Source: Paracoccaceae bacterium (GTDB lineage: Bacteria > Pseudomonadota > Alphaproteobacteria > Rhodobacterales > Rhodobacteraceae). From it: DNA of 33,659 nucleotides. Under the pieces are notes generated by a model that was not told the DNA's origin, did not search any database, and was given only the letters and a program-made list of their open reading frames with translations. The DNA lies in assembly GCA_027069385.1 (NCBI GenBank), contig JALXER010000393.1, positions 1-33,659 of the forward strand, given 5' to 3'. Made by a program: the position numbers and the translations under genes. This document shows positions 11,329-28,315 of this stretch, one piece after another (position 1 is the first letter of the stretch; every line of letters begins with the position of its first letter).

Positions 11329-12062
11329 CCGAAACCTGGATCATCCTCGGGGCTTCGTCGGCCATCGCCCGTGCCTTTGCCCGCCAACAGGCCGCCACCG
11401 GCGCGCGCCTTATACTGGCGGGGCGCAACCATCAGGAATTGCTGGAACAAGCGCAGGATCTGTGCCTGCGCGGTGCCCCCGAAGCCGACGCGGCAGAGTT
11501 CGATATCCGCAACCCGGGCACCTTTGCCCCGATCATCGATCTGGCTGCGCAAACCACCGGAACGGTGAATGCAGCGGTGTTTGTCGGCTCTATGCCCGAA
11601 CAAGCCGATATCGACCGCGACCCGGACTTGCTGGATACGGTGGTTCTGGACAATTTCACCGGCCCTGCCCACTTTTTGCACGCGCTCGCACCGCTGCTGG
11701 AGGCACGCGGCAAAGGCACCGTTATCGGCATAGGCTCGGTTGCCGGAGATCGCGGACGCCTGGGGAACTATGCCTATGGTGCCGCCAAGGCCGGATTTCA
11801 TACCTACCTGTCAGGCCTGCGTAACCGGCTGGGCCGGAAAGGTGTGCAGGTGATTACCGTGAAACCGGGATTTGTCGATACGGCGATGACCTGGGGAATC
11901 GAGGGCATGTTCCTTGTGGCATCCCCCGAAGACATTGCCAAAGCCCTGATCACCGCAACCCGCAAACGCAAAAACGAGATCTATACCCCGTGGTTCTGGC
12001 GCTACATCATGCTGATCATTCGAAATATCCCCGAATTCATCTTCAAGAAACTGTCGATCTAA
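11325..12062 (+). CDS. SDR oxidoreductase, DprE2-like
   Basis: WIILGASSAIARAFAR Rossmann motif, GSVAGDRGRLGNYAYGAAKAG (S-YxxxK), VITVKPGFVDTAMTWG, C-terminal YTPWFWRYIMLIIRNIPEFIFKKLSI; 4-nt overlap with the upstream oxidoreductase. Confidence 0.92.
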   Translation: MTETWIILGASSAIARAFARQQAATGARLILAGRNHQELLEQAQDLCLRGAPEADAAEFDIRNPGTFAPIIDLAAQTTGTVNAAVFVGSMPEQADIDRDPDLLDTVVLDNFTGPAHFLHALAPLLEARGKGTVIGIGSVAGDRGRLGNYAYGAAKAGFHTYLSGLRNRLGRKGVQVITVKPGFVDTAMTWGIEGMFLVASPEDIAKALITATRKRKNEIYTPWFWRYIMLIIRNIPEFIFKKLSI

Positions 12063-12075
12063 CCCGAATCCGGGC

Positions 12076-12224
12076 GCTCCCGCACTCCAGCCATTGACTG
12101 GCTAAAGCCAGCCAACGACTTCCGTTTGGGCCGGGCCTCGGCTTCGCCTCGGCAGGGGGCAAGCCCCCTCTGGCGCAAGCGCCATTCACCCCCCCCCGGG
12201 ATATTTGCGAAAAGAAGAAGATGA
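12076..12224 (+). repeat. Composite multi-hairpin intergenic element, copy A
   Basis: CTCCCGCACTCCAGCC, hairpin CTGGCT-AA-AGCCAG, linker CGACTTCCGTTTGGGCCGGGC, GCC-TC-GGC-TTC-GCC-TC-GGC, hairpin AGGGGGC-AA-GCCCCCT, hairpin TGGCGC-AA-GCGCCA, tail CCCCCGGGATATTTGCGAAAAGAAGAAGATGA. Confidence 0.85.
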
Positions 12225-12225
12225 G

Positions 12226-12371
12226 ACTTCATTCTTCCTTAAATACTCTCAGGGGGGAGCGACGCCAAGTCGCGAGGGGGCGGAACGCCCCCATACCGCC
12301 CGCAGGGCGGCCCGGCCCAAAGGGAAGCCTGTGATTGCGGAACGCAATCAGGGGCTGGACTGCGGGAGTAC
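12226..12371 (-). repeat. Composite multi-hairpin intergenic element, copy B, tail-to-tail with copy A
   Basis: Minus-strand reading: ACTCCCGCAGTCCAGCCCC, TGATTGCG-TTC-CGCAATCA, GCTTCCCTTTGGGCCGGGCCG, CCGCCC/GGGCGG, GGGGGCG-TTC-CGCCCCC, GCGAC/GTCGC, CCCCCTGAGAGTATTTAAGGAAGAATGAAG. Confidence 0.82.
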
Positions 12372-12381
12372 TCCGGTTTGG

Positions 12382-13926
12382 CTAGATGACCGAGGCGGCA
12401 GCCAGGGTCAGGCCTGCGCCGATTGCCATCAAGGTCAGGCCGACCGGGTCGCGCAGGGCAAAAACAATCGGGTCATAATTCATCCGCCCTTGCCAGCCGC
12501 GCCAGATCATTCGCGCCAGCCACAGCGCCACCGGCACTGCCGCCAGGCGCAGCAACCAAACGTCTTTGTACAGGTTCAGCGCAATACTGTCGTAAGAATA
12601 GAGCAGATAGACCACCAACGCACCAACCGACGCAGTTATGGCAATATTGCGCAGGTCGCCCCGATCGTGCCGGGCATAGCCTCGCCCGGGCAGTTGCCGG
12701 TCGTCAGAGGCCCGGCTTAGCTCTATCAGACGCTTGACACAGCCCAGCGCCAGAAACACCGGAAACACAAAGCTGCCCAGCCAGCCCGACATCGGCACGC
12801 CGGCCACAACCGCCCCCGCCACCACCCGCAAGGTATAAAGCGCCGCAAGGGTTGCCACATCGACCCAGCGTAACCGCTTCAGCACCAGCGAATAGGATAG
12901 CGACAGCACCATATACACCGCAATTATCCCGCAAAGCCCCGCCGAATGCAGCAACGCCCCGCCCAGCGCCGTACTCGCCAGCAGCAAGAACAGCACCATG
13001 CCGGTCTGGATCGGCACCGCCCCCGCGGCAAACGGACGCTTGCACTTGGTCGGGTGACGCCGGTCTGCCGACAGATCCAGCAGATCGTTGATGATATAGA
13101 TCGAGGAAGCCGCCGCGCTGAAAACCGCAATCCCCCACAGGGTCAGCAGCACGCTATGCAACTCCAGCCGGTGGGCCGCCACGATCGGCAGGAACAGCAG
13201 GATATTCTTGATCCACTGATGCGGCCGCAAGGCGCGCAGGCTATCCTTTGGCCGCTGCCTGGATTCGATGATCTCTACCGGCGGGTCAAAGGATTGCAGC
13301 GCATTTCGAAACCGCGCGCTTCGAACTACGGCTATTTTACCCGCTGATTCGGCCCATACCGGCAGATCGGCGCGGGAATCACCGACATAGTCAAAACCCG
13401 CCTTGCCAAACCGTGCCACCAGGGCGCGCGCTTTGGTGTTTCCGGTCATATTGGTTTCGCCGTCCGATGCCAGCACCGGCTCGCCCAGATCCAGCCGGTC
13501 AGCCAGCGCGCGCACAAGGGTTTGATCCGAACCCGAGGCCAGCGCGACCGCTCGTTCGGCTTGGCGGGCATCGCGAATCCGCTTTTCGACCTCGGGGTTC
13601 AGGGGCATTTCGGCCATGTCCAACTGTGCCAGCCGCGCCAGATTTGCCTTTAGCCTTGCCTTGTGGATCAGGTTTTTGAATACCACCTTACAGGTCGCAA
13701 CCGGATGCCGGCCAAGCGCCGCCCAAAAGCTTTCGAACAATAAATCGGTGCGGAGCAACGTCCCGTCTACATCCACGACAAGGGGCAACTGTCCGCTTTG
13801 TTCGTTTTGTTCACTGTCGGGCAATTGCGAAGCTCCAAAGAAAATATCGAGTCCCCGCCTTCGCAAAGAATTTCGCCAACGGCTATGGGGTAAGTTCAGG
13901 ATATTCCGAATCCGGTCAATGATCAA
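12382..13926 (-). CDS. HAD-like hydrolase / UbiA prenyltransferase fusion (decaprenyl-phosphate phosphoribosyltransferase-like)
   Basis: HAD motif VVDVDGTLLRTD...FDYVGDSRADLPVW in the N-terminal half; LRPHQWIKNILLFLPI...YIINDLLDLSADRRHPTKCKRPFAAG...VLKRLRWVDVATLAALYTLRVVAGA in the C-terminal half. Confidence 0.9.
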   Translation of the reverse strand: MIIDRIRNILNLPHSRWRNSLRRRGLDIFFGASQLPDSEQNEQSGQLPLVVDVDGTLLRTDLLFESFWAALGRHPVATCKVVFKNLIHKARLKANLARLAQLDMAEMPLNPEVEKRIRDARQAERAVALASGSDQTLVRALADRLDLGEPVLASDGETNMTGNTKARALVARFGKAGFDYVGDSRADLPVWAESAGKIAVVRSARFRNALQSFDPPVEIIESRQRPKDSLRALRPHQWIKNILLFLPIVAAHRLELHSVLLTLWGIAVFSAAASSIYIINDLLDLSADRRHPTKCKRPFAAGAVPIQTGMVLFLLLASTALGGALLHSAGLCGIIAVYMVLSLSYSLVLKRLRWVDVATLAALYTLRVVAGAVVAGVPMSGWLGSFVFPVFLALGCVKRLIELSRASDDRQLPGRGYARHDRGDLRNIAITASVGALVVYLLYSYDSIALNLYKDVWLLRLAAVPVALWLARMIWRGWQGRMNYDPIVFALRDPVGLTLMAIGAGLTLAAASVI

Positions 13927-27937: not shown

Positions 27938-28090
27938 CCTCTCCCGCCCGTCATCGGCATTTTTCGCAAGCGAAAAAGCCTCTTCCCGTTGGGCCGGGCG
28001 CCTCGCCTTCGGCTCGGCGCGGGGGCGTGCCGCCCCCCTTGCCATTCCGGCAATTCCCCCCTGAGAGTATTTATAGAAGAATGAAGATGT
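27938..28090 (+). repeat. Composite multi-hairpin intergenic element, copy C
   Basis: TTTTTCGC-AA-GCGAAAAA (27960-27977), linker CTTCCCGTTGGGCCGGGC, GCGCC-TC-GCC-TTC-GGC-TC-GGCGC, GGGGGCG-TGC-CGCCCCC (28021-28037), TTGCC-ATTCC-GGCAA (28039-28053), tail CCCCCCTGAGAGTATTTATAGAAGAATGAAGATG. Confidence 0.85.
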
Positions 28091-28109
28091 AGGGCAGGCG
28101 TAAGGCGGC

Positions 28110-28133
28110 GTAGGGCGGGCTTCAGCCCGCCAC
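28110..28133 (+). repeat. REP-like palindrome, divergent copy 4
   Basis: gtaggGCGGGCT-TC-AGCCCGCcac; same GTAGG lead and palindrome layout as 813-836 with a changed but still paired stem. Confidence 0.65.
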
Positions 28134-28213
28134 TCCCCCTACCACAATCATATCCCTCCCCTTCACGCGCCATAGGCGCGTCCCGACCGTCCCCCACTCA
28201 CAACCTCATGCTA

Positions 28214-28309
28214 GCGCAGCGACCCGCCCGATGGCGAAGCCGAGGGCGCGGCCCAAACGGAAGTCGTGGGCTGGCTTTAGCCAGTCCATGGCTGGAGTGC
28301 GGGAGTGCA
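28214..28309 (-). repeat. Composite multi-hairpin element, copy D (partial)
   Basis: 28249-28305 on the minus strand matches 12077-12133 of copy A at 55 of 57 positions in a hand alignment. Confidence 0.85.
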
Positions 28310-28315
28310 CGGTTT

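Follow-up and report, generated by a model that had tools for sequence, protein, structure and literature searches.

The window analysed here is a stretch of 33,659 nt from a Paracoccaceae genome assembly, in which a short-chain dehydrogenase (SDR) gene with its stop at position 12062 converges on a UbiA-family gene with its stop at 12382. The gap is occupied by two half-elements, A on the forward and B on the reverse strand, which are arranged tail to tail and comprise four hairpins each (Table 1). Read from the outside inward, a half-element consists of an end motif, CTCCCGC, hairpin 1, a linker GGGCCGGGCC, hairpins 2, 3 and 4, a C-run and an ATATTT/purine-rich tail, and the composite ends reach approximately to CCGGGCG (12070) and CCGG (12378). 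The original prediction of two multi-hairpin halves that meet tail to tail in the gap between the convergent SDR and UbiA genes is borne out by this layout, as is its description of shared linkers and tails alongside hairpins 1 and 4 that are unrelated in sequence and still pair. The stretch from 12063 to 12380 (318 nt) folds at −185.2 kcal/mol as compared with −132.2 kcal/mol for shuffles (z = −9.9). The UbiA protein itself (window 12382–13926) has an N-terminal HAD phosphatase-like domain.

Table 1. Features of the composite between the SDR and UbiA genes and of a second composite in the window (bounds of the half-elements are approximate).
Feature	Position	Strand	Description
Half-element A	12070–12221	+	End motif CCGGGCG, CTCCCGC, four hairpins, C-run, purine-rich tail; 93% identical copy at C212:5427–5587, plus others
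Hairpin 1 of A	12090–12119	−	Unbroken stem with G-U pairs, UUUA loop on − strand
Linker of A	12125–12137	+	TTTGGGCCGGGCC; pairs with linker of B
Hairpin 2 of A	12135–12153	−	GAA triloop on − strand
Hairpin 3 of A	12154–12169	−	AGGGGGCAAGCCCCCT; CUUG loop on − strand
Hairpin 4 of A	12171–12184	−	TGGCGCAAGCGCCA; CUUG loop on − strand; family-wide, stem sequence free and pairing kept
Tail of A	12185–12221	+	TTCA, C-run, tail GGGATATTTGCGAAAAGAAGAAGA
Half-element B, whole	12219–12378	−	CTCCCGC end and CCGG motif toward UbiA stop
Tail and C-run of B	12227–12257	−	CCCCCCTGAGAGTATTTAAGGAAGAATGAAG
Hairpin 4 of B	12259–12273	+	GCGAC/GTCGC
Hairpin 3 of B	12276–12292	+	GGGGGCG-GAA-CGCCCCC
Hairpin 2 of B	12296–12310	+	CCGCCC-GCA-GGGCGG; double change C-G to A-U in 10 of 30 copies
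Hairpin 1 of B	12327–12355	+	GCCTGTGATTGCG/CGCAATCAGGGGC
Second composite	27941–28315		B-type half (+) at 27941–28094; (−) half with A-type hairpin 1 and differing inner modules

The A+B composite of about 300 bp is the unit of a dispersed repeat. A genome search for further copies had been set beforehand as a test of the original prediction, and in the 3.23-Mb, 411-contig assembly a core covariance model (hairpins 4-3-2 and the tail) gives at least 127 matches; the same model finds 63 matches in one relative and 32 in another, and each of the 13 same-genus genomes has one or more. Searching the own genome with blastn gives at least 57 places like A, at least 41 like B and at least 65 like the pair, counted on 40 scored candidates out of 166–192, and a tail pattern matches 54 times with 0 matches for the reversed control. 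Since several contigs end within copies (e.g., C50, C255, C263, C274 and C81), the true copy number is probably higher. The further pair announced in the original prediction (its copies C and D) is the second composite of Table 1, which likewise lies between convergent genes.

The copies are mosaics. Types A and B are defined by hairpins 3 and 4 and the tail, while modules 1 and 2 differ from copy to copy; with hairpin modules 1 and 2 typed on 76 extracted halves, the 22 complete composites show 13 combinations of the outer modules. These combinations show directly the exchange of hairpins proposed in the original prediction. All 22 of the complete composites are A/B heterodimers (9 in the arrangement A>B< and 13 as B>A<; p = 2 × 10−7 against random pairing). 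One A-A homodimer occurs in a distant genus (G057), so the heterodimer rule is not absolute across the family, and the pattern used to separate A-A from A-B pairs family-wide demands a T that is absent from the own B halves (GGGGGGAGC), which makes it uninformative on pair types. Halves that stand alone are common, as are swaps of interior modules. After an A-type hairpin 1 and without the type-A hairpins 3 and 4, another string of inner modules (GCGCCCTCGGCTTCGCCATCGGGCGGG ... GGGACGCGCCTATGGCGCGT) is seen in the second composite of the window as well as in L028, L033, L035, L037 and L038. One B half and one A half (L012, 1245–1550) stand head to head in a codirectional gap, the opposite of the usual tail-to-tail order.

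The copies show a preference for convergent junctions. Using flanking genes called by a simple codon-usage gene caller, we find that the 34 copies with both flanks called are all intergenic and lie in 21 convergent, 12 codirectional and 1 divergent gaps, compared to a baseline of 4 convergent junctions among the 33 gene junctions of the window (p = 1 × 10−11 for the convergent excess). The start of CTCCCGC falls no more than 40 nt past the stop of a long same-strand open reading frame in 49 of 76 halves, as opposed to 7% of random positions, and the loci elsewhere in the family are 6 convergent, 13 codirectional and 0 divergent. Such a position at convergent 3' ends, together with GC-rich hairpins followed by ATATTT/GTATTT, is what one would look for in a bidirectional intrinsic (Rho-independent) terminator that has been multiplied. 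It is unlikely that this describes the element, however, as a terminator scan gives no site inside 12063–12381, no hairpin is followed by a U-run, the tail is purine-rich, and a length of 300 bp with four hairpins and an A/B heterodimer rule is not needed for terminators of this type. The likeness to bidirectional intrinsic terminators is that of GC-rich hairpins between convergent genes, and the difference lies in a repeat that has no U-tract and is far longer, mosaic and dispersed.

The SDR-UbiA junction is kept in six same-genus genomes (L105, L108, L110, L111, L112 and L116), in all of which the element is absent from it, and in three of these there is almost no intergenic DNA at the junction. 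The element at this locus is therefore most simply explained by a lineage-specific acquisition, judging from the orthologous junctions of the relatives. In two of the six (L111 and L116, the junctions of G007 and G004) another palindromic sequence, approximately CCTAGGTTTATTAACCTAGGTAAGTAGTT, is common to both in the element's place. On a broader scale, of 60 further genera sampled within the family, 29 contain a strict core pattern, often several times. Outside the family, the pattern turns up in 2 of about 190 genomes of the class, and in one of these two it does not pair. The core model has matches in 72 of 151 family genomes, and its top-ranked matches visibly share the same architecture. 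The repeat is apparently specific to one bacterial family, the Rhodobacteraceae, across which it is simpler in form than in this genome, with the unpaired TTCACCCC and the ATATTT tail conserved across genera.

The conservation of pairing through sequence change was analyzed on B halves alone or from the loop outward, because the MAFFT register is imperfect for hairpins 3 and 4 of the two halves and for the outer pairs of hairpin 1. In an antisense-strand alignment of 30 B halves, standard pairs make up 99.9% of the stem cells and double changes are seen at 7 of the 23 pairs; none of 500 shuffles attains the covariation score of 0.109, and slid structures score no higher than 0.012. The two outcomes named beforehand as refuting the original prediction, no further copies and no covariation, did not occur, the latter as judged by these shuffles. 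Nearly every pair of hairpin 1 is variable. For the family-wide comparison we used a core pattern, GCCCCCTCT-N(8-26)-ATTCACCCC, that leaves hairpin 4 unconstrained, and 101 of the 104 distinct hairpin-4 interiors from 28 family genomes can pair into a stem of 4 bp or more, a comparable stem being reached by 15% of shuffles.

Selection on structure, as put forward in the original prediction, agrees with this retention of pairing in the B halves and in hairpin 4 across the family, but a purely RNA account of it is not supported. The strand that folds better runs antisense to the gene next to it, every change in hairpins 2–4 of B is two-sided with no one-sided change seen, and in one copy (L141, 1352–1500) hairpin 1 is a perfect palindrome running through CTCCCGC with the linker overwritten, with a near-perfect long palindrome overwriting the linker in another (L003-B, L003 1645–1792). 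The palindrome in L141 resembles what template switching during replication would produce, and some of the covariation may reflect replaced modules or corrected palindromes instead of selection. Correction of palindromes at the DNA level and processes acting on single-stranded DNA are both possible alternatives to the RNA account.

A strand bias in folding is new relative to the original prediction. The better-folding strand is the complement of the CTCCCGC strand, i.e., the reverse complement of the strand on which the element was originally written. For hairpin 1 of A, A-C mismatches break the stem on the + strand, and the predicted RNA stabilities are −22.8 kcal/mol (− strand) and −9.7 kcal/mol (+ strand). 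Of the 45 distinct hairpin-1 variants in the own genome, 43 are more stable on the complement of the CTCCCGC strand, and so are all 14 of the relatives' variants. Under symmetric scoring, the stem mismatches on that strand are 32 G-T and 1 A-C, although these come from related copies and do not represent 33 independent events. This asymmetry is better evidence than the covariation for selection on a folded strand. The loops follow the same direction family-wide: among hairpin-4 triloops, GNA is found in 36 of 55 on the CTCCCGC-complementary strand against 0 on the other, and among tetraloops the corresponding numbers for GNRA are 11 of 41 against 0.

A structured RNA acting in trans or in cis (an sRNA or riboregulator), encoded by the strand that folds better and with transcription running outward from the center of the composite, would account for the G-U pairs and the GNRA and CUUG loops on that strand. 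This is the least probable of the readings we weighed and seems highly improbable: a sigma-70 promoter scan returns no promoter-like site in the region, the Rfam covariance models give no match to the element, and more than 100 copies with free stem sequence and no conserved loop sequence usable as a seed do not fit a regulator of this kind.

In a convergent composite, the half on a transcript's own side is crossed in the weaker orientation, whereas the far half is crossed in the stronger, a geometry that would be consistent with the far half being selected as an RNA 3' boundary. In distant members of the family the simpler half sits in codirectional gaps in either orientation (7 vs. 6), and the loops do not visibly differ between the two. 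A loop bias that is independent of the direction of transcription is more in keeping with a role at the DNA level than with one in RNA, and loops that are alike in both codirectional orientations are equally compatible with a strand-specific role in single-stranded DNA. In DNA, d(GNA) loops are exceptionally stable.

A rival reading is that the repeat is mainly selfish or neutral palindromic DNA, which spreads through single-stranded DNA, is tolerated only in gaps at gene ends and owes its pairing to template switching that copies one arm onto the other. The palindromes of L141 and L003-B, the exclusively two-sided changes in hairpins 2–4 of B, the loop bias regardless of gene direction and the stability of d(GNA) loops would all be in line with such DNA. 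The 32 to 1 asymmetry of G-T over A-C mismatches, on the other hand, points to selection on one folded strand beyond arm copying, conservation across genera extends to the unpaired TTCACCCC and the ATATTT tail, and strong convergent placement flush with both stops exceeds what tolerance alone predicts. We regard a mainly selfish or neutral nature as a possibility of rather low probability.

With respect to known systems, it is well supported that this mosaic hairpin repeat is of the REP/BIME-like kind, stands outside the named REP classes and is not a single-locus regulatory RNA. Dispersed extragenic palindromic copies in excess of roughly 100, inverted palindromic units with interchangeable modules and a position near 3' ends that is rarely divergent define REPs and BIMEs, and correspond here to the at least 127 core matches in the own genome, the 22 tail-to-tail pairs in 13 combinations, and the 21/12/1 distribution of contexts (6/13/0 in the family). 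Like the BIMEs of enterobacteria, which are mosaics built from REP/PU units and conserved inter-motifs, the copies are dispersed extragenic mosaics of inverted palindromic units, numerous, assorted in their modules and placed at 3' ends. They differ in that each half combines four dissimilar hairpins with linkers and a tail that are single-stranded and conserved, in the absence of a GTAG tag and of a RAYT, and in forming only A/B heterodimers among the complete pairs of this genome. Among the functions ascribed to BIMEs are binding of gyrase, Pol I and IHF, stabilisation of mRNA and Rho-dependent termination; in the present repeat, an IHF consensus is found in 0 of 22 composite centers.

Di Nocera and colleagues reported that REPs are mainly found in gaps between convergent or unidirectional genes, in many cases no more than 20 bp from both 3' ends, and described an alphaproteobacterial class with a CGTC tag that lacks a dedicated transposase and often forms dimers (PMC3733652). 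The present repeat resembles that class as an alphaproteobacterial palindromic repeat without a dedicated transposase, often dimeric and near convergent 3' ends. A CGTC REP is a single stem of 8–9 bp that carries the CGTC tag together with a CCA tail (PMC3733652), and both tag and tail are absent from the core hairpins here, CGTC otherwise occurring inside one hairpin-1 module type and not at a stem foot. With the GTAG REPs, which are marked by GTAG or GGAG at the hairpin foot and by a cognate RAYT flanked by repeats, the repeat shares a strand-specific folded palindrome, and antisense hairpin 3 (AGAGGGGGCTTGCCCCCT) resembles a Pseudomonas fluorescens REP, GTGGGAGGGGGCTTGCCCCCGAT, listed in PMC2817692. 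Neither half contains GTAG on either strand, a GTGG foot is likewise absent, GGAG occurs only in the end motifs, around the C/G-run and in the hairpin-1 flank and not as a shared hairpin foot, and the repeat unit is much longer than a REP. A literature search, mostly of sources outside subscription journals, found no description of this repeat.

We rejected a RAYT partner, as the only Y1 proteins in the own genome are of the IS200 type (140 bits to NF033573, and 32 bits to the RAYT model against a cut-off of 80). No element modules lie beside the Y1 proteins of the own genome, and 9 of the 10 other element-rich genomes examined have no Y1 transposase. If the composite were a MITE, its ends being terminal inverted repeats that a transposase recognises in trans, one could point to the terminal inverted repeats that are present, imperfect over 37 nt at 73%, to the conserved end CCGKRGCNCTCCCGC and to the lineage-specific presence. 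We consider this very unlikely given that the 22 complete pairs have no target-site duplication, the ends are fuzzy, solo halves and interior module swaps are frequent, and no transposon with these ends was found. Beside one truncated copy (L027, after 1590) lies an open reading frame resembling an IS66-type transposase.

Taking placement, mosaicism and folding together, we propose that the element is probably a family-specific REP/BIME-like mosaic repeat, present at this locus as a tail-to-tail heterodimer, which provides convergent genes with a common 3' boundary. Whichever of the two genes it came from, a transcript would first cross the near half in its weaker-folding orientation and would then meet the far, stronger-folding half just before entering the other gene in antisense. 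There, the hairpins could reduce read-through, either together with Rho or through stalling, and could protect the trimmed 3' end of the RNA from exonucleases in the manner of REP sequences in enterobacteria. The copies may spread and swap modules by a strand-specific process acting on single-stranded DNA together with recombination between copies.

A bolder form of this proposal, which we put forward tentatively and hold to be doubtful, is that of a family-wide, strand-specific palindromic system lacking a Y1 transposase, which spreads via a folded single strand with the help of an enzyme not known to mobilise REPs, and which now serves the lineage, instead of U-tract terminators, as the standard bidirectional boundary at gene ends. 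If this were the case, converging gene ends in a large family of bacteria that abound in marine and soil habitats would be marked by a mosaic palindromic repeat able to spread without the transposase credited with driving REPs. It would then offer one system in which to test how transposase-less REP classes are mobilised, and in which to test REP-like repeats as real 3' boundaries in termination, RNA protection and supercoil relief.

An IS200 copy in L026 (approximately 86–231) is inserted in the element tail right after TTTAG, and an IS200 copy in L102 (approximately 1380–1420) is likewise preceded by TTTAG; since the same motif precedes both, the element tail may offer a target for IS200.
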